Shown here piece by piece: positions 1,669 to 20,499 of a stretch of 21,972 bases of DNA; the stretch's first letter is position 1, and every line of letters begins with the position of its first letter. The notes under the pieces were generated by a model. The model searched no databases, was not told where the DNA came from, and saw only the letters and a program-made list of their open reading frames with translations. This DNA is from a virus: positions 1 to 21,972 of the IMG/VR virus record IMGVR_UViG_3300021085_000252. The stretch is one strand, 5' to 3'. The position numbers were made by a program, and so were the translations under genes.

Positions 1669-3327
1669 CTATGCAAAAAAGTAGTCACTTTTTAACACCT
1701 CCTCGATGTCAAGTTCCCCTTTGGTTGGAGGTAGTGGCACATCCGTTCCCTCCGTTAATGTTGTTACTGCGCTATCGTAGAGATTTTGCAGCACATCATG
1801 TTCTTTGTACATCTCCACAAACGCCTCTCTTAACTTATCGTTAAGCTTTGGCATGTTTGGTGAGTGTGTTCCGTAGCTATCGTGTACCATTGCGAAATCA
1901 GTAACACCGCTCTCTACGCACTTCCCTACTGTAAAGGTTAAAGCCGCAGCATCTAATGAATGCACAAGGTTAGGACTAGCCCCTGACGCTGCTTTGCGCG
2001 CATCTACGGAGTCATCTATTGGCTTAGAATAGTTAAGCCTAACTACTGATCCGTTAAGGTGTGTAGCTATCCTTAGTTTCCTTTGCTCATTATATGTCTG
2101 CCTTACCAGTAAGCCTGTTGGTGTGTGCCACTCAAACATCTTACCTTGTTTTGCATACAGCCTAGCAATTTCTTTAACGTAATCCATCACTGAGTGTGCT
2201 GAGACAATAACCTCATTGATTGCTTGCCATACAAAACCTGACAGATACATTGAAGGCTTGAAGAAATCATCATTCCAAGGGTTACGCCCCTTACACTTTT
2301 CTTCTAAAGATTCCTTAATGTATTCTGTACAAGCGTGTCGTGTACCTGAGTACGGCACAATCATCACTGGTCTCTTAGTTAACTTCCTGCATACACCTAC
2401 ATCAAGTAACTGTTTCGCCAACTGTGTGTCTTGTTGTTGTAACAACTCTGTTGCGCGTTTTGCTACGTCTGTGTAAATGTCCTGCGGTACTTCACTTGGT
2501 AGTAAGTTAACTGCCCTACCTCCCTCTTTGTCCCTGAGCATTGCTGAGAGGTGTTGTAAGCCATTGCACGAGCCATCACTAGCACAGGGTAGGTGCGTCT
2601 CAAAGTGCTCCCCAAACTGCCTAGCGTTGCTGTACAATGCCCACTCATAACACCATGCAAGTGCTTGCCAAGGTTTATCTGCTTCCTGCCACCATCTGTT
2701 AGTTAAGGGATCGTTATAAACATCGACAGCGTTCTCTACGTTCATGTACGCCCACATCTCTCGATCTTCTAAACTTACCTTATCTACTCCAAATACATTA
2801 GCACCATGTATAGCCAACCATCTAGCTTCTTCGTCATTCGTGATAGTAGCTGGGTTAGCAAACTCTAACAATGCTTTGCTGTAGTCAGCGTTCTGTGGTG
2901 AAAGGAAAGACTCTACTGGATACTTACGTCCACGAAAGTCTAACTGCCATACATACCACATCTTCTCTCTATGTGCATACTCTTCTGCAAGTTGTATTGT
3001 ACGTTCAACCTGTATGCGTTTAGACATAGATTTGTTATTGAAACTGTGAATCTTGTTTCGCTCTCTTTTAAACTCCTTAAACTTAATCTTCTCTTCGTCA
3101 TTAAGAAACTTAGGCTCTTTACTAAAAGGATATTTAGGTAGCGACAGGTTATCTTTAGGAGGCAAACCCTCCCAAGTCTGTCCACTGTCCCAACACTGCC
3201 TAATTGTCTGCGCGACAAACCCATTAATACGCCAAGGTGTTTGCTGTATAGCGTTTACACAAGCGTACTCATGGGTAAGGTCGCACTGTTGCAGCTTATC
3301 TACGTAGTCCTGTACAATCTGCCTCAT
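1669..3327 (-). CDS. T7-like single-subunit RNA polymerase, C-terminal catalytic part (separate ORF)
   Basis: A 552-aa protein covering T7 RNA polymerase from about residue 300 to the end. Counting from a possible GTG two codons earlier, the catalytic residues are all present: D253 in ASDGSCNGLQH (T7 D537), K320 in LTKRPVM (T7 K631), Y328 (T7 Y639) and D485 in VHDSYGT (T7 D812). The C-terminus SDYFFA matches the T7 SDFAFA foot. The fingers and palm are complete, and the region equivalent to the promoter-specificity loop (about 400-436) differs from T7, so it should read a different promoter. The N-terminal domain is encoded by the preceding ORF in another frame. I choose the ATG at 3327, which forms ATGA with the upstream stop and has GAGG 8 nt before it. 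Confidence 0.95.
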   Translation of the reverse strand: MRQIVQDYVDKLQQCDLTHEYACVNAIQQTPWRINGFVAQTIRQCWDSGQTWEGLPPKDNLSLPKYPFSKEPKFLNDEEKIKFKEFKRERNKIHSFNNKSMSKRIQVERTIQLAEEYAHREKMWYVWQLDFRGRKYPVESFLSPQNADYSKALLEFANPATITNDEEARWLAIHGANVFGVDKVSLEDREMWAYMNVENAVDVYNDPLTNRWWQEADKPWQALAWCYEWALYSNARQFGEHFETHLPCASDGSCNGLQHLSAMLRDKEGGRAVNLLPSEVPQDIYTDVAKRATELLQQQDTQLAKQLLDVGVCRKLTKRPVMIVPYSGTRHACTEYIKESLEEKCKGRNPWNDDFFKPSMYLSGFVWQAINEVIVSAHSVMDYVKEIARLYAKQGKMFEWHTPTGLLVRQTYNEQRKLRIATHLNGSVVRLNYSKPIDDSVDARKAASGASPNLVHSLDAAALTFTVGKCVESGVTDFAMVHDSYGTHSPNMPKLNDKLREAFVEMYKEHDVLQNLYDSAVTTLTEGTDVPLPPTKGELDIEEVLKSDYFFA

Positions 3328-4103
3328 GCCCACACCCTCACGAAAGGTAATTGATTAATATGTTCTGAGTAGTAACCACCACCCCAGAAGTCATCCCAAT
3401 CTTTAGGCTCAATAACGCAGGGGCTGTACCTTGGTAACGCTACGCTGTTTGTTTCGTTAAAAGCTTTTACCCATTCTTCAGTCTCTGGTGTTGGTACTAC
3501 AAGGTAAGTGGTTTTCTTTTTCGTTACCTTTTTCTCTAGCCTGACTATGCCTGTTTCTTTAATAATTAAATCAACCAACTTAAGACCTACGTGTATTCTA
3601 TTCTCACTGCTCCAGTGTGGTATATCTAATCCATCAGATTTTATCTTGTGGTCAAGACCGTACCGCTTGTGGTCAAAACCTTTATCTGATTTTTTGTTAG
3701 CTAGTGTAAGTACATTGGTTGCTACTTCTTTATCTAGCTCTAGCCACTTGTCTAACCTCATCTGTGTTTCTATTTGTATTCCTATAAACTTAGCTACGCC
3801 TAAAAGTGTGGGCTTCCTGACCATGTTATCTACTAAAGATATTAAAGCTAAGTAAGCCATCTGCCCTTCGTCACAACCTTTAGTTAAATTCTTAAAGGCT
3901 GACTTTGTTATCATCTTGTGGTTGTTGTACTCAACTATCGCATCCATTAATGGTTCGACAATACCCTTGATGATGGTGCGCCCGTGCTTAGTCTTTGATC
4001 CTAAATCTTTAGATAATAAATCTTCTAAACTTTTATTGTAGCGGTGTATCCCTGACTGTACCATGCGGTACTCTAAGTCTATTTGATCATCCAATGTTGC
4101 CAT
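3324..4103 (-). CDS. T7-like RNA polymerase, N-terminal part (separate ORF)
   Basis: A 259-aa protein matching the N-terminal domain of T7 RNA polymerase: WSSENRIHVGLKLVDLIIKE aligns with T7 WHKEDSIHVGVRCIEMLIES, and WGGGYYSEHINQLPFVRV aligns with GGGYWANGRRPLALVR. The ORF ends just after this segment, and the next ORF begins at the equivalent of T7 HSKKALMRYEDVY, so nothing large is missing at the break. In T7 this domain binds the promoter upstream region and early transcript. The second of two adjacent ATGs is used because AGAGG is 6 nt upstream. Either the polymerase is a heterodimer, as in N4 RNAPII, or a frameshift or sequence error lies at 3324-3345. The two parts sum to about 811 aa, against 883 for T7. 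Confidence 0.9.
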   Translation of the reverse strand: MATLDDQIDLEYRMVQSGIHRYNKSLEDLLSKDLGSKTKHGRTIIKGIVEPLMDAIVEYNNHKMITKSAFKNLTKGCDEGQMAYLALISLVDNMVRKPTLLGVAKFIGIQIETQMRLDKWLELDKEVATNVLTLANKKSDKGFDHKRYGLDHKIKSDGLDIPHWSSENRIHVGLKLVDLIIKETGIVRLEKKVTKKKTTYLVVPTPETEEWVKAFNETNSVALPRYSPCVIEPKDWDDFWGGGYYSEHINQLPFVRVWA

Positions 4104-4115
4104 CATTTACCTCTC

Positions 4116-4363: not shown

Positions 4364-5377
4364 CTATGCTTCGAGTAAATTAGACCCGCCAACCATAGTT
4401 GAAGTGTCCCATTTAGCATACTTAAGAGTGGTTGCAATATTTTTATGACCCATGTAACGCATGATGTTAGCAGTGTCCCAACCCTTCTCAGTAAGTCGTG
4501 TTGCCGTAGTATGTCTCCATGTATGCCAACACTTATTTGTTAGACCTAAGTTCTCACGAACCTTGTCCCAAGCAAACCTATGCTTGTATAATTCAGAGTT
4601 AAAAGTTTTACGCCTACGCAGTATCTCTTCTACTCTTTTTGTTACAGGCATCAGCAGTGCTTCACCATTCTTCCTGTCTGGTATGTAAGCACCATACACT
4701 TGCGAACCATCTTCTCTAGTTTGCTGCAACTTGATTAACTTATCGCCATCAACCTTCAACACCTCAGAAGCTCGCATACCTGTGTCTACTGCCACGATAG
4801 CATAGTCATGTAGGTAGTCTTCACCTAACCTCTCAAACTCGCTTAGAATGGCATTCTCTTCGTCCTTCGTAAAGTATTCAAGCCTCTCTCTGCCCTGCTC
4901 ACTTTGACGTTTAAATTTAGGTACAGAAGTTAAAGCTCCTTCATCAACAGCATTGTCTAAACAACGCTTAAGACATGAGATATGTCTGTTTACTGTTGAA
5001 GGTGCATACCCTTGGTTCTCTCGCATCCACTTGATCCAGTCAAAGACTGTAGTAGTGCTGATACGATTGATGGGTGACTTCTCGCCCCAATACTTACAGA
5101 CAATACTTTGAATAAACATTACTTGTCTTTCATTCTTAGTATTAGCCCAGTAGTTTTCATGGCATCGATCAAACGCATAGCGTAGCGTCCATCCTGATGC
5201 CTTACCAGTCTCTCTGTTTACCTCCATAGCTGTAGGCATATTACCCTGAGCTATGTCTCGCTTCCACATAGCCTCCAGTAGCGAAGCATCTTCCTTAGTG
5301 GAGAGAGTTTTTCTGAAGCGTTTGCCTTTGAAAGTAACGTAAGCTTCCCAACCGCTACCTCTTTTAGTTACACTCAT
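4364..5377 (-). CDS. int: Tyrosine-family phage integrase
   Basis: A 337-aa tyrosine recombinase. The N-terminus (GSGWEAYVTFKGKRFRKTL) looks like an arm-binding domain. Residues about 60-160 form the core-binding SAM-like domain, and the catalytic domain has R202 in DTGMRASEV, K236 in the beta hairpin, H285 and R288 in HTWRH, H311 in YMGHKN and nucleophile Y320 in LKYAKWD. The R-K-H-R-H-Y set is complete, so it should be active. I start it at the ATG at 5377, which has AGGAGG 6 nt upstream and overlaps the stop of a 29-aa ORF as ATGA; an upstream in-frame start would lack this and read through the small ORF. attP lies right downstream. In the phage it is followed, across attP, by the RNA polymerase. 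Confidence 0.96.
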   Translation of the reverse strand: MSVTKRGSGWEAYVTFKGKRFRKTLSTKEDASLLEAMWKRDIAQGNMPTAMEVNRETGKASGWTLRYAFDRCHENYWANTKNERQVMFIQSIVCKYWGEKSPINRISTTTVFDWIKWMRENQGYAPSTVNRHISCLKRCLDNAVDEGALTSVPKFKRQSEQGRERLEYFTKDEENAILSEFERLGEDYLHDYAIVAVDTGMRASEVLKVDGDKLIKLQQTREDGSQVYGAYIPDRKNGEALLMPVTKRVEEILRRRKTFNSELYKHRFAWDKVRENLGLTNKCWHTWRHTTATRLTEKGWDTANIMRYMGHKNIATTLKYAKWDTSTMVGGSNLLEA

Positions 5378-5463
5378 GCTATGCCTCCTGTTAAAAATAC
5401 TGCTACGCAACCAATCGCATAACAAGCACCGCAATATAACGCGCCTTCTATTAAAAAATTCAT
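5374..5463 (-). CDS. 29-aa membrane microprotein between regulator and integrase
   Basis: A 29-codon ORF that begins MNFLIEGALYCGACYAIG and ends GGIA. It is mostly hydrophobic and long enough for one transmembrane helix, with three cysteines. Its ATG has AGGAGG 8 nt upstream. The start overlaps the stop of the winged-helix gene as ATGA, and its own stop overlaps the integrase start as ATGA, so all three genes look translationally coupled. The SD of the integrase lies inside it, so it could also act mainly as a coupling leader. No known family recognised; function unknown. Confidence 0.6.
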   Translation of the reverse strand: MNFLIEGALYCGACYAIGCVAVFLTGGIA

Positions 5464-8376: not shown

Positions 8377-8408
8377 ATCTGGCGTAGTGGTGCTTGCCAA
8401 ATGCAAAT

Positions 8409-8427
8409 GAGAATCGTTATCATTATC
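8409..8427. promoter_or_regulatory. Fur-box-like site 2
   Basis: GAGAATCGTTATCATTATC matches the Fur consensus (GATAATGATTATCATTATC form) at 16 of 19 positions and extends into further NAT triplets on both sides. It lies immediately after the 49-aa gene and before the 65-aa gene. Together with site 1 it occupies a 200-bp gap (8231-8429) that has no supported gene. Confidence 0.5.
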
Positions 8428-10252: not shown

Positions 10253-10277
10253 AAGATGTAGCCTCTAATATGTAAAT

Positions 10278-10296
10278 GATAATGATTCGCATTTGC
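10278..10296. promoter_or_regulatory. Fur-box-like site 3
   Basis: GATAATGATTCGCATTTGC, 15 of 19 matches to the Fur consensus, in an imperfect palindrome with AAATG and CATTT ends (10274-10294). It ends about 25 nt before the start codon of the first early gene and about 9 nt before its SD. Confidence 0.5.
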
Positions 10297-10645: not shown

Positions 10646-10736
10646 TAGTAGAGCTGCAAGCAGTGGTTTTTATATCCTCTGTAATATCAGCAGTAGCGCG
10701 GTGAGATTCCATCCCGTGGCGTAGGTTGTGGCAAAT

Positions 10737-10755
10737 GATAATGATTCTCATTTAC
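10737..10755. promoter_or_regulatory. Fur-box-like site 4
   Basis: GATAATGATTCTCATTTAC matches the Fur consensus at 16 of 19 positions. In the 7-1-7 view, TGATAAT-G-ATTCTCA has one mismatch. It starts 34 bp before site 5, about three helical turns. Confidence 0.6.
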
Positions 10756-10770
10756 AAACCCGTGATAGAT

Positions 10771-10789
10771 GATAATGATTCTCATTCGC
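10771..10789. promoter_or_regulatory. Fur-box-like site 5
   Basis: GATAATGATTCTCATTCGC matches the Fur consensus at 16 of 19 positions, with the same 15-bp core as site 4. It lies about 28 bp downstream of the inferred start of a possible host promoter. Confidence 0.6.
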
Positions 10790-14541: not shown

Positions 14542-14676
14542 TTATGTATCCTTCTTCTTAAAACCTATCTTAAGTTTAGCGTAAGCTTTAGGAGAGACGG
14601 TTGAGTTCTTTTTAGATCGACTAATGCCTTTCTTTTTTCTTGCGTTAATATTTGCGTATAAACCTTTACTAGCCAT
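14542..14676 (-). CDS. Very basic small phage protein (44 aa)
   Basis: A 44-aa Lys-rich protein starting MASKGLYANINARKKKGISR and ending KIGFKKKDT. The pattern GLYANI..RKK.G.SRSK..S is a recurring form of small phage proteins of unknown function, often near packaging genes. It overlaps the HNH-like gene by 8 nt. Likely nucleic-acid binding by charge only. Confidence 0.72.
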   Translation of the reverse strand: MASKGLYANINARKKKGISRSKKNSTVSPKAYAKLKIGFKKKDT

Positions 14677-14890
14677 TTCTGCTCCTATTCTTTTTCTTAC
14701 TTTGTATTCTTAAGTTACTTGTAGATTTGTTTTGTGGGTTTCTGTCTTTATGGTCTACATCCTTACCAGCGACAGCCGCAGCACCCCTCTTCTTGATCAT
14801 TAACGACCTCGATGTGTTACGCGCTGCTCTTCTTTTCTTTTGCTTATCGCTGCTGTGGTAGTTAGCGTATTCTTTCTTATAGTTTCTCAA
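14669..14890 (-). CDS. HNH-like small protein beside the terminase genes
   Basis: A 73-aa very basic protein. The C-terminal half, DVDHKDRNPQNKSTSNLRIQ then SKKKNRS, has the D-H...N...N spacing of HNH endonuclease motifs, but the protein is much shorter than usual HNH enzymes and lacks visible zinc-binding cysteines. Phage HNH proteins often lie next to terminase genes and assist packaging. It may be a minimal nickase or a DNA-binding remnant. It overlaps the TerS candidate by ATGA. Confidence 0.72.
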   Translation of the reverse strand: MRNYKKEYANYHSSDKQKKRRAARNTSRSLMIKKRGAAAVAGKDVDHKDRNPQNKSTSNLRIQSKKKNRSRNG

Positions 14891-16037: not shown

Positions 16038-16619
16038 TTAGTTTAAATCGTCAATGCGGAATCCACTGAAACCAGCATTGGCGTTGTTTGCATGTATAGT
16101 CACAGAACTCCCTGAATTTTGCCATACATTCACATGAACAACATCACCTTCATTTAGTTTTTGCAACGTATGTGTTCTAAGAAAATGGTCTGCAAAAGAC
16201 CCTCCCCCTGTTGGTGCAATCACGGAGCGGTTACTAACATCAGTATTATTAACTCTTATGGCTATTTGAACCTGTGTGCCTGCACTAATTGTTCCCGTAA
16301 AATACAAACCAGCAGATAAGAAATAGAAACCAGCTTTACCTGTAGGAATTGTGTAGTTTTTATTCGTCGTATCGTATGCAGTATCGCTATCTAAAGAGTC
16401 TCTTAATGTATTAAAGTTTAAATCAGTGTTAGAGTTGTGAGTTATTACTTGAGTAGAAGTACCCTTCGCTGAAAAATAAGGAGTGTTGCCACCCCCAACA
16501 TCCGCAAGGAGTGCTGAGGGAATTGTACCTGTTGAGTCTAAGTTAGCTGGGTTGATTGTAGAGGTACTCGTAAGTACCCCCGCTGCGTTAAAGTCTGCTA
16601 GGTTTCTTGCCCTAGTCAT
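16038..16619 (-). CDS. Fibre-tip-like protein, C1q/TNF-type jelly roll (probable)
   Basis: A 193-aa protein. The N-terminus MTRARNLADFNAAGVL is common to secondary fibre proteins of marine phages. Residues about 48-193 look like a beta jelly roll of C1q/TNF type: NYTIPTGKAGFYFLSAGLYF, then QVQIAIRVNN, LNEGDVVHVNVWQN and a closing GFSGFRI strand. Such domains trimerise and often form receptor-binding tips. It lies downstream of the main fibre gene and before the lysis genes, so it is likely a second receptor-binding protein. AGAGG precedes its start. Confidence 0.72.
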   Translation of the reverse strand: MTRARNLADFNAAGVLTSTSTINPANLDSTGTIPSALLADVGGGNTPYFSAKGTSTQVITHNSNTDLNFNTLRDSLDSDTAYDTTNKNYTIPTGKAGFYFLSAGLYFTGTISAGTQVQIAIRVNNTDVSNRSVIAPTGGGSFADHFLRTHTLQKLNEGDVVHVNVWQNSGSSVTIHANNANAGFSGFRIDDLN

Positions 16620-16848: not shown

Positions 16849-19800
16849 TTATATTCCTGTGCTTGTTATTCTTACTTGTGCATCTTTGACCTGAGCCGAA
16901 TCAGTTGAAGACAGTTCTTTAACATATAACTTGTAAATTAAAGTATCATCGGTGTAGGGTAGTTTAAAGCTAACATTATGTCGTTCAGCCCCTGACCTAT
17001 ATCTTTCTGCAATGTCTTTATAAACAAGAAGCTGTGCGTTTGCGTTTTGCCACGCATAAGGGTGTAAATAAACAGTATCGCCAGTCGCTATAGGTGCTGT
17101 AGTATTTGTAGCGCAGAAGTATGTTCTATCCGCACTAGCTTGATACTGTACTGCTACAACTTGCTGTTTAATACCGCCTGAACTAGATTGAGATATTCTA
17201 CAGAACTCTGTGAATAAGTGTTCGTAATTTCCTGTAACGTAATACCACTGCTCATTACTATTTCGTGCGCTATAATAGGATGAAGATGAAAAAGCATTAG
17301 CAGTTCCTATACTAACGGCTGAGACAGTGCTTGGTACAGTAAGATATAAAGAAAGCCTAATGTCGTTATTGCTACTGCTGACATAACTCCAAACTGTACT
17401 CCACTCGATATCAATAAAACGCATAGTCTCTACAGGAGTGCTAGGGTGATATAGATTTAGATATTGCCCTAAGTTTTGATTTGATGTTGTTAAGTCAAGT
17501 ATCCGATTAAAAGAACTTAACCTCTCGTCTCTTACCCTATGATAAGGAATAGTATCTAATCTAGCACCATCTGTGGCTACGTTTCTACCGTCTACTGTAC
17601 CTGTTACATCTACATTACCATTAAGATTAATCTGCTTTGTGGTTGTAGAGCTGGTAGGTGCTATATTAACTGTTGTTGTGCCGCCTGTACCATATCCTGT
17701 ACCTATGTTAACTGTCTTAGTATTGCCTGAACCGCCAGAACCAGTCGCAATATTAGTAGTAACGCTACCTGTAGTGCTTATGTCTACATTAGATGCAGTT
17801 AAATCACCACCAATATTGATAGTGCCTGTACCAGTAATATTACCTGTTACATCAAGACCGCCTTGAACACCACCATACAAAGTAGAAGAGCCTGCTACAG
17901 TCAACGACTGTGTGCCTGATGGTGGTAAGCCTATATTCACATTACCAGTAAAGGTAGCACCTGATAGGTTTGCTTTTCCTGTGATGTCAGATGCTGTAAG
18001 GTAAGTACCTAAATCACTAATCTGACTTTCAGTAATACTTAATGCCGCTTGGTGCTGAGTAACACTAGTTTGAGTAATGTTTGCATCTGGTACGTTTGCC
18101 CATGTAACAGTTGTTGCTAGGTCGTTAGCCTCTGCTGTTAAGTAACCCACGGCATCGTGGTCTCCCCAACTATAGGCTGTATCCCAGTTAAGAATCTTAG
18201 TCGCATCTTCAGTCCACTTAGTGCCAATGCTATTAGTCACTGTAGTAGAGAAGTTAGCATCATCGCCTAATGCAGATGCAAGTTCGTTTAGAGTGTCTAA
18301 AGTAGCAGGGGCAGAATCTACAAGACCGCTTACTACTGTGTCTACATAGGTTTCAGTTGCGTAGGTGCTAGAGTCAATAGTGTAAGTTCCTGCACCAGTG
18401 CGCTTCATAAGACCGTTGGATGTAAAGTCCCCGTCCATTACTGCACCAGCAGCTTCAACATTAGTAGTTGTTACAGTTGCATCAGAACCAGCAGCACCAG
18501 TTGCTCCCGTTGCACCAGTTGCACCAGTTGCTCCAGTTGCTCCCGTATCGCCACGAGGTACTGTTATAACACCTGTTACGGAGTTATAGGAAGCATCCGT
18601 GCCAGCAGCTCCTGTTTCAACATCAACGATGGGAGACAAGCTATCGGCTACTATTTCAATAAGATCACCAGCAGCAACTCCAGAAGTTAAAATTACCGAA
18701 GTACCATTGTAAGCCGTATAGTCGTTAGCTGAGGGTACTGCGATTCCAGAGTTTGGAAGGATGCACGCACCGTAGGCATCAGTTATGTCTGTTACATATA
18801 CACGAGCATTGTAGTCATTGGTAATAAAGTCAGAGGCGCAAGAACCTGCCTGTAACAAAGTTAAGTTTTCTGCCCCACCAGTGCCAATAAAATCAGTATA
18901 AGCAGTCCATTTGTACCTAAAGGAGCTTCCAGCAGGAACTTGATAAGTCCAAACCCAGTCACCATTAGAATCTTGGGTAGCTTCACCTTCTGTCCACATG
19001 CTTTCAGCAGCACTATTACTAGCTACCCAACCCCAAAGATCAGAATTTACATACACGCTCTGATAATTATTATCCGTTAGCTTAATAGTAACAGTCGCAG
19101 GAGTACTGGTTGAGATTCCAGAACTTGCCAAGTGACAAGCGTTAAAAGTATCAGTGATGTCTCTATGGTAGATGCGGGAGGAAGCATCGCTGGTTATAAA
19201 GTCAGAGGCACACAATGAGCTATTAGTAGTAAGATCTTCAAAACTAGTAACGTCATTAGAAGTAGTAACAAGCCATCTATAGCGAAAGGTAGATCCAGCG
19301 GGAACTTGATAAGTCCAAACCCAGTCACCCTCATCATTTAGTGTGGCTTCACCATCAACATCCATATATCCTGACGTATTGTTAGCAATCATTTCAGACT
19401 CTGTTTCTGACCAACCCCAAAGATCAGAATTTAAATAAACGTCAGTATAATTATTATTCGTTAGTTTAATAGTAGCAGTCACGTTGCCATTAGCGTCTGC
19501 CTGTTGACTAGCTGTAGCTTGACTAAGTGGTATTGTACTTTCTACAAGTTTAACACCGTTGAGATACACATCTAAGTGACCAGCTTGGTAGTCCATTGGG
19601 AATGCTGTTTGTCCCGATGTAGCCACAAAAGACTTTCGATTAACAGGGTTAGAGATGCCAAGGGCTGCGTTTTGCCATCCGTTAGCTTGGTATACTTTTA
19701 GTATGTTAACACCAGAGTCAAACCAAAATGCACCAACTCCTATCGAAGCACCGTCTGAATGGACAGTGGGTGCTGTCGTGCTTGACCCTAAAAAGGTTTT

Positions 19801-20499
19801 ACCGTAGTGGTTTATCCCTGTAGCGTTTTCTGCCGCAGTTTCCACCGCATTAGAAATCCCTGCAACCGTACTTACATCTGTATCAATGGCTGCCACAGCT
19901 GCCACATCGGCTGAAATCCCATCAATGAGTGAGACGTTTGTCGCCACAGTTTGTACTTCACTTGAAATTCCAGCAACCGTGTCTATGTTGGCTTGGTCTG
20001 CAGTAGTGAATGTTAAAGCACTCCACGATGATGCAGAGGCGTTATAAACCTTCATTACATCATTAGAGGTGTCAAACCACAAATCACCATCAGAAGGTGA
20101 AGGAGTTGTAGGCGCAACGAGAGTAGCACCGTAGTACCTAGCGTTGTAGTCTCCACCAATCATCTCAGCTTTATCAAGGGCTTCTTGAGCTATGTTAAAG
20201 ATTTGATTAGAGTCTTGATCTAACGTCTCTGCCTTAAGCATTGAGCCAGAAGCAAAGTCTACTTGTCTGGCTGCGGATGCTGTCTCACGCCTTATGCTTA
20301 TCTTATCCCCGTTTGAAGGAGTGAAGCCTGTATTGAAAATTACCAGACTACTACCTGTTAGGATATAATCTGTATCTTGTGTTTTGACAACATCGTTTAC
20401 CAGAACAACAATGTCACTGGCTTGTTGGTGACTGGGGGCAACAAAGACGCTTTGCCCTGTGTAGTCGTACTCATTTATAGAGTGTAAAGTGTTTGTCAT
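16849..20499 (-). CDS. T7 gp17-type tail fibre with duplicated insert and collagen-like segment
   Basis: A 1216-aa fibre, about twice the length of T7 gp17. Residues 1-112 are the T7-type virion-binding domain (INEYDYTGQSVFVAPSH ... LDQDSNQIFNIAQEALDKAE). Two WFDxxxxxxKVY modules follow (about 120-165 and 235-280), separated by a Val/Ala/Asp heptad-like stretch. A module starting FVATSGQTAFPMDYQAGHLD, VYLNGVKL (291-318) is resumed at NDYTAYNGTSVILTSG (592-607); between them lie two related repeats of about 115 aa (340-456, 467-581). A collagen-like (GAT)n segment is at 649-671, then beta-helical repeats and a C-terminal tip to 1216. It should recognise the host surface. AGGAAAAT precedes the start. 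Confidence 0.93.
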   Translation of the reverse strand: MTNTLHSINEYDYTGQSVFVAPSHQQASDIVVLVNDVVKTQDTDYILTGSSLVIFNTGFTPSNGDKISIRRETASAARQVDFASGSMLKAETLDQDSNQIFNIAQEALDKAEMIGGDYNARYYGATLVAPTTPSPSDGDLWFDTSNDVMKVYNASASSWSALTFTTADQANIDTVAGISSEVQTVATNVSLIDGISADVAAVAAIDTDVSTVAGISNAVETAAENATGINHYGKTFLGSSTTAPTVHSDGASIGVGAFWFDSGVNILKVYQANGWQNAALGISNPVNRKSFVATSGQTAFPMDYQAGHLDVYLNGVKLVESTIPLSQATASQQADANGNVTATIKLTNNNYTDVYLNSDLWGWSETESEMIANNTSGYMDVDGEATLNDEGDWVWTYQVPAGSTFRYRWLVTTSNDVTSFEDLTTNSSLCASDFITSDASSRIYHRDITDTFNACHLASSGISTSTPATVTIKLTDNNYQSVYVNSDLWGWVASNSAAESMWTEGEATQDSNGDWVWTYQVPAGSSFRYKWTAYTDFIGTGGAENLTLLQAGSCASDFITNDYNARVYVTDITDAYGACILPNSGIAVPSANDYTAYNGTSVILTSGVAAGDLIEIVADSLSPIVDVETGAAGTDASYNSVTGVITVPRGDTGATGATGATGATGATGAAGSDATVTTTNVEAAGAVMDGDFTSNGLMKRTGAGTYTIDSSTYATETYVDTVVSGLVDSAPATLDTLNELASALGDDANFSTTVTNSIGTKWTEDATKILNWDTAYSWGDHDAVGYLTAEANDLATTVTWANVPDANITQTSVTQHQAALSITESQISDLGTYLTASDITGKANLSGATFTGNVNIGLPPSGTQSLTVAGSSTLYGGVQGGLDVTGNITGTGTINIGGDLTASNVDISTTGSVTTNIATGSGGSGNTKTVNIGTGYGTGGTTTVNIAPTSSTTTKQINLNGNVDVTGTVDGRNVATDGARLDTIPYHRVRDERLSSFNRILDLTTSNQNLGQYLNLYHPSTPVETMRFIDIEWSTVWSYVSSSNNDIRLSLYLTVPSTVSAVSIGTANAFSSSSYYSARNSNEQWYYVTGNYEHLFTEFCRISQSSSGGIKQQVVAVQYQASADRTYFCATNTTAPIATGDTVYLHPYAWQNANAQLLVYKDIAERYRSGAERHNVSFKLPYTDDTLIYKLYVKELSSTDSAQVKDAQVRITSTGI
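18487..18555 (-). repeat. Short tandem repeats encoding collagen-like (Gly-Ala-Thr)n
   Basis: About seven GXY triplets coded by near-identical 9-bp units (plus strand GCACCAGTT, GCTCCAGTT and GCTCCCGTT). Collagen-like rods keep fibre trimers in register. The tandem DNA can slip in steps of 9 bp without losing frame, so length may vary between isolates. Confidence 0.75.
18757..19101 (-). repeat. Fibre internal repeat, copy 2
   Basis: Codes for residues about 467-581. It shares with copy 1 the strings VYVNSDLWGW/VYLNSDLWGW, WVWTYQVPAGS, FRYKW/FRYRW, ASDFIT and DITD. At DNA level 29 bp (18935-18963) are identical to copy 1 (19301-19329), so the duplication is fairly recent. The fold looks like a beta-sandwich carbohydrate-binding module (inference). 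Confidence 0.75.
19132..19482 (-). repeat. Fibre internal repeat, copy 1
   Basis: Codes for residues about 340-456. Each copy starts TxTIKLTxNNY and has a pair of cysteines late in the repeat (C430 and C455 here), perhaps a disulfide in an extracellular binding module. Both copies lie inside a shorter fibre module that otherwise reads continuously across them. Confidence 0.75.

Follow-up and report, generated by a model that had tools for sequence, protein, structure and literature searches.

Tandem Starch-Binding-Fold Domains, Probably Glycan-Binding, Nested in the Tail Fibre of a T7-Like Phage

The tail fibre of a T7-like phage was found to carry two tandem domains, R1 and R2, inside one of its shaft modules. 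By profile and model comparison, these domains were shown to be distant homologues of modules that occur in tandem in secreted Bacteroidota proteins, and a predicted beta-sandwich fold of the CBM20/CBM48 superfamily is well supported by modelling. We consider it probable that these CBM-like domains in a fibre loop serve in glycan binding and add a weak, multivalent adhesion. Among close relatives with near-identical terminases or neighbouring proteins, the same loop holds zero, one or two copies, a series which offers a natural test of a nested sugar-binding-type domain in a T7-type fibre. The window, that is, the whole stretch of DNA analysed, comprises 21,972 nucleotides of a metagenomic virus record.

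The Tail Fibre Gene and Its Insert

The features of the fibre gene are listed in Table 1. The N-terminal domain was identified with an E-value of 2.8e-9 and 37.3 bits, above the Pfam cut-off of 25.2, and residues 1-120 are 94% identical to those of the relative L003. Families of tail fibres in PHROGs match residues 648-826.

Table 1: Features of the tail fibre gene in the window.
Feature	Residues	Positions	Strand	Basis or remark
T7-type tail fibre gene	1216 aa	16849..20499	minus	Pfam Phage_T7_tail PF03906 and PHROGs tail-fibre families
N-terminal tail-attachment domain, T7 gp17 type	27-111	20167..20421	minus	PF03906
Interrupted shaft module, half 1 (FVATSGQ...VYLNGVKLV)	291-319	19543..19629	minus	Continuous with half 2 in L004, L006, L007, L008, L009
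Linker at insert start	320-338	19486..19542	minus	
R1, starch-binding-fold domain 1	339-462	19114..19485	minus	Cys 430/455; conserved Trp 363
R2, starch-binding-fold domain 2	468-586	18742..19098	minus	Cys 554/579; conserved Trp 491
Interrupted shaft module, half 2 (ANDYTAYNGT...GDLIEIVA)	591-618	18646..18729	minus	
Collagen-like G-x-y stretch, fibre shaft, downstream of insert	650-671	18487..18552	minus	PF01391, E 0.003, under curated cut-off

The shaft module has a strand-loop-strand pattern and reads FVATSGQTAFP (residues 291-301) and VYLNGVKL (311-318) in its first half, and ANDYTAYNGTSVILTSG...GDLIEIVA in its second, with NDYTAYNGT at 592-600 and GDLIEIVA at 611-618. It is split after VYLNGVKLV (residue 319). 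The initial annotation had proposed a duplicated module of about 268 residues inside a common fibre module; both copies were indeed found there on the minus strand, and the size was essentially right, since 271 residues (320-590) separate the halves. Its motifs were also located, with NSDLWGW at residues 357-363 and 485-491, DWVWTYQVPAGS at 392-403 and 514-525, and a pair of cysteines in each copy. FRYKW, however, occurs in R2 only, and R1 has FRYRW. The end of the linker, D-x-N-G-N-V-T, is also present in the single-copy inserts of L003 and L010. The initial annotation had suggested a new sugar-binding head; the domains, however, lie within the fibre shaft, apart from the region of the C-terminal tip.

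Homology to Modules of Secreted Bacteroidota Proteins

No family above cut-off was identified for the phage modules in Pfam, NCBIfam or PHROGs. R1 scored 13.8 bits for CBM_20 in Pfam, against a cut-off of 23.3 (E 0.05), and the other phage copies gave nothing relevant in Pfam. Searching the PDB with phmmer gave no match for the modules, a genome scan with the phage alignment found no relative, and an Rfam search gave nothing relevant. With a profile of the four phage sequences, the two best PDB matches, both non-significant, were chains with starch-binding domains.

The lead to the bacterial homologues was a consensus of a common marine Bacteroidota module, which was searched in genomes and then tested for homology. 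The consensus identified 80 loci, mostly in Bacteroidota, with up to 9 copies per protein. Against the bacterial ORFs, the best matches of the phage-only profile were L078 (E 3.4e-8), L108 (5.2e-7) and L110 (3.1e-4), and the 12 ORFs at E<0.1 were read as module-bearing. In the reverse direction, the three insert-bearing fibres ranked top among the virus-side ORFs when searched with the bacterial profile, with E-values of 0.0014 for the fibre of the window, 0.02 for L010 and only 0.54 for L003 (search size Z = 10,000). Comparison of the phage with the bacterial profile by hhalign gave a probability of 94.8%; restricted to match columns, the probability was 78.8% at a score of 32.3, which was reached in 0 of 200 column permutations (22.7 at most) and compares with 11.4 for the reversed profile.

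In an alignment of 37 phage and bacterial sequences, columns of Trp, Glu, Cys, Arg and Cys are invariant, and the cysteine pair, within an E...C...R...C pattern after the Y-K-F strand, is present in the phage and Bacteroidota copies. The tandem V-T-F-x-V-D-M-type modules of the secreted Bacteroidota proteins, some of which have T9SS sorting tails, thus share with the phage modules the cysteine pair, the invariant Glu and Arg and the tandem layout. They differ in that identity is only about 20-30%, that the phage modules form a clade of their own (support 100) on a long branch, and that the phage modules belong to a fibre rather than to secreted proteins.

The bacterial module proteins exceed the Pfam cut-offs for CBM_48, AMPK1_CBM, X25 and CBM_20. 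Independently of this, the sole match of the phage profile in 296 Bacteroidota genomes was the CBM_20 domain of a GH57 protein; here, both GH57 and CBM_20 are above cut-off, and the CBM_20 region carries a matching V-P-A-G-x-x-x-Y-K segment. The profile comparison with carbohydrate-binding families that had been suggested at the outset was therefore negative for a direct match at cut-off, and positive through Bacteroidota homologues that lie above the CBM cut-offs.

Predicted Fold

A model from the four phage sequences was of low confidence (pLDDT 62, pTM 0.59), and Foldseek placed starch-active enzyme chains first for it at E-values of 0.016 and worse, which is suggestive only. The model of R2 with bacterial homologues reached a pLDDT of 82 and a pTM of 0.76; as these homologues were part of its alignment, its likeness to CBMs partly restates the homology described above. 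Foldseek ranked a glucoamylase (E 3.6e-4) and the CBM20 of STBD1 (3.8e-4) highest for it, and chains related to starch or glycogen made up almost the whole of the top 50. The VIA Z-score was 8.2 to both CBM25 and CBM20 (rmsd 2.5-2.9 over 84-86 residues), where a Z of about 8 is not far from values that are called common between unrelated folds. A search of the PDB with the combined profile, whose alignment includes the bacterial homologues, matched 45 sequences, all 45 being starch- or glycogen-type proteins or CBM48-bearing esterases. The prediction thus agrees with the initial annotation, which had expected a separate domain with a starch-binding-like beta-sandwich, since the R2 model matches starch- and glycogen-binding domains almost exclusively.

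The Putative Sugar Site

For AMPK beta1, we take the glucan-site residues to be W100 as the first platform Trp, W133 as the second and K126 as the conserved Lys. The first position corresponds to Trp 363 and Trp 491, which is invariant in all aligned copies (37 of 37) and aligns to F-N-N-W via the combined profile. The second platform Trp is absent from the phage copies, and at the position of the Lys in the Y-K-F strand, K, R, E or Y is found across the four phage copies in the profile alignment to AMPK. With one of the three classical residues considered kept, an alpha-glucan ligand should not be assumed. All four copies retain Trp/Tyr positions in L-W-x-W, G-D-W-V-W and Y-x-W.

With the CBM20/CBM48/AMPK-beta superfamily (PF00686, PF02922, PF16561), the phage domains have in common the predicted fold, the Trp of G-S-F-N-x-W and the P-A-G-x-x-x-Y-K strand, and they are tied to it through the bacterial homologues that pass the Pfam cut-offs. 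In contrast to this superfamily, the phage copies lie under every cut-off, are without the second platform Trp and vary at the Lys; in addition, they carry an extra cysteine pair, which comes with a C-terminal extension, and their loop after W-x-W is longer. Because of the fold and the relatives, glycan binding is the best guess for the function, and by this analogy the phage domains likely bind glycans. The cysteine pair likely forms a disulfide in the secreted bacterial proteins, and in the phage such a bond could probably arise only once the particle has been released from the cell.

Zero, One or Two Copies among Relatives

Relatives were fetched with the N-terminal 320 residues of the fibre, and the insertion site was then read in each. 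In the same loop throughout, no copy was identified in L004, L006, L007 and L008, one in L003 and L010, and two in the window. The empty site reads VYLNGVKLVASSGSTANDYTATNGTSVVL in L006 and L007 and YLNGVKLVARLDANTPNDYTADDGTTFTL in L008; the shaft module is likewise continuous in L004 and in L009, a more distant relative (upstream gene 42%). The terminases of L003, L006, L007 and L008 are 97.5-98.6% identical to that of the window, and neighbouring proteins are 97-100% identical in L004, L006, L007 and L010. The joined flanks were matched as a single piece in all 60 phage records among the matches listed. The initial annotation had named, as a result that would speak against it, relatives in which the sequence is always continuous and single-copy; since empty as well as single-copy sites were found, this objection falls away. 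It thus appears that a part which probably grips sugars is acquired by the fibre and multiplied there.

When all virus contigs were searched at the DNA level for the pattern GDWVWTxQ[VI]P, only the two contigs of L003 and L010 were found besides the window. No match to the module was obtained in named phages, and the closest bacterial subfamily was not found in virus contigs or named phages. Within reach of these searches, the module is therefore rare. The C-terminal tip also varies between relatives, with 26% identity to L003 and 55% to L010.

Origin and Age of the Duplication

R1 and R2 share 57% identity over 116 aligned residues, and when the proteins of the record were searched with R1, R2 was recovered at an E-value of 1.3e-35. 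In the tree, R1 and R2 are sisters beside the copies of L003 and L010 (support 92). Sequence comparison shows a common origin of the phage modules, and from the sister placement the simplest history would be a single acquisition followed by a tandem duplication, not a recent one, in the lineage of the window.

The initial annotation had taken a 29-bp identity between the copies as a sign of recent duplication. The 29 bp were confirmed as the longest exact DNA match (the next being 23 bp), but the conclusion was rejected. The copies share 64% identity in aligned codons with a dS of 0.95, which exceeds the values of the flanks between the window and L003 (0.54 and 0.72; attachment domain 0.23), and the 29-bp segment lies within a slowly changing core, with 32 of 36 bases in its surroundings common to L003.

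Proposed Role and Alternative Explanations

T7-type fibres are trimers, and six are present per virion. In the mechanism we favour, the two CBM20/CBM48-like domains occupy the loop between two strands of the repeated shaft module, a position from which they should project sideways from the trimeric fibre without breaking the shaft. Two domains per chain would amount to 36 copies per particle, a number that would suffice for weak multivalent binding. The glycans bound might be those of host capsule, LPS or exopolysaccharide, or glucan on particles, and the adhesion would supplement the C-terminal tip in adsorption, the tip presumably remaining the main receptor binder. A more specific version, in which an alpha-glucan or exopolysaccharide module was captured from marine Bacteroidota and its copies, tuned in number and separate from the tip, let the phage hold on to particles or capsules rich in polysaccharide at the feeding places of its hosts, is rather doubtful.

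It is somewhat unlikely, though to be taken seriously, that the insert is structural decoration, either as CBM-fold spacers which stiffen or lengthen the fibre, or as passengers that a permissive loop tolerates, and that it has no specific ligand. Ig-like beta-sandwiches of phage structural proteins are often without a proven ligand. Such a role would fit the partial conservation of the canonical sugar site, and also the copy number of zero to two among close relatives, from which the domains are dispensable. The Trp/Tyr positions kept in four of four phage copies argue against it, as does the faster change of the modules between the window and L003 (44-47% amino acid identity, against 75% for the flanks and 94% for the attachment domain), a pattern which is expected of a binding surface and is no proof of one.

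That the fold serves instead as an Ig-like scaffold binding a protein receptor or another virion protein is improbable; beta-sandwich domains in phage virions are established to make protein contacts too, but in sequence as well as in fold, the modules that come nearest are those which bind starch and glycogen. That the insertion or duplication stems from an assembly artefact or a chimera, for which the metagenomic origin of the record could speak, can hardly be credited, since the frame is open over 1216 residues, R1 and R2 differ at 43% of their residues, and the module is present at the same site in two independent contigs.

Comparison to Known Phage Adhesion Systems

CBMs in the loops of phage adhesion proteins are already known, and it is the present combination which is new. 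In the "evolved Dit" proteins of Gram-positive siphophages, loops of the Dit galectin domain contain inserted CBMs, and some of these proteins are reported to bind hosts (PMC7291167). As for the fibre insert, a CBM is grafted into a loop of an adhesion device, in one or two copies and in only some relatives; the difference is that the protein is Dit and not a fibre, that the CBM is BppA-like and that the phages belong to a different group. For crAss-like phages, tail proteins with tandem BACON repeats were described, a Bacteroidota-type, putative carbohydrate-binding domain that arose there by duplication and transfer (PMC6949934). These repeats resemble R1 and R2 in being Bacteroidota-type, tandem and tail-associated, but the domain family and the phages are others, and the parts of that report considered here describe no insertion nested within a fibre hairpin. 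A search of open-access papers for CBM48 or starch binding combined with phage fibres gave no relevant report. The present case ties phage adhesion to a large family of Bacteroidota modules and extends the theme of a CBM in a loop from the Dit of Gram-positive siphophages to a T7-like phage; among named phages, those nearest to it mostly infect marine bacteria.

The Phage and Its Other Genes

The terminase is closest to those of Roseobacter phages and other marine or T7-like phages (about 62% and below). The genome encodes a T7-type RNA polymerase, a single-stranded DNA-binding protein, an integrase, a holin and an M15-type lysis protein. The RNA polymerase is present in two overlapping ORFs on the minus strand, 1669-3333 and 3324-4106, with RPOL_N and RNA_pol; the split is either a real frameshift or an assembly error. 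At 4364-5434 (minus), a tyrosine integrase was identified, which in a T7-like phage suggests a temperate or integrating life. An HNH endonuclease-like ORF (14669-14890, minus) has the lysis genes on one side and the terminase gene on the other.

Downstream of the fibre, a gene at 16038-16619 (minus) codes for a small protein, possibly a second adhesion protein. Its product is only 37-41% identical in L004, L006, L007 and L010, despite the 97-100% identity of the neighbouring genes, and its match to L008 is limited to the first 39 residues (85%).

The sequence AATGATAATGATTCTCATT occurs with 0-1 mismatch at four sites (8406-8424, 10275-10293, 10734-10752 and 10768-10786), against a chance expectation of 0.01 sites at up to 3 mismatches. 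All four sites are conserved in L003 (18245-18263, 18279-18297, 18738-18756 and 20212-20230). It resembles the bacterial Fur box of the iron regulator, and phage genes may respond to the iron status of the host.
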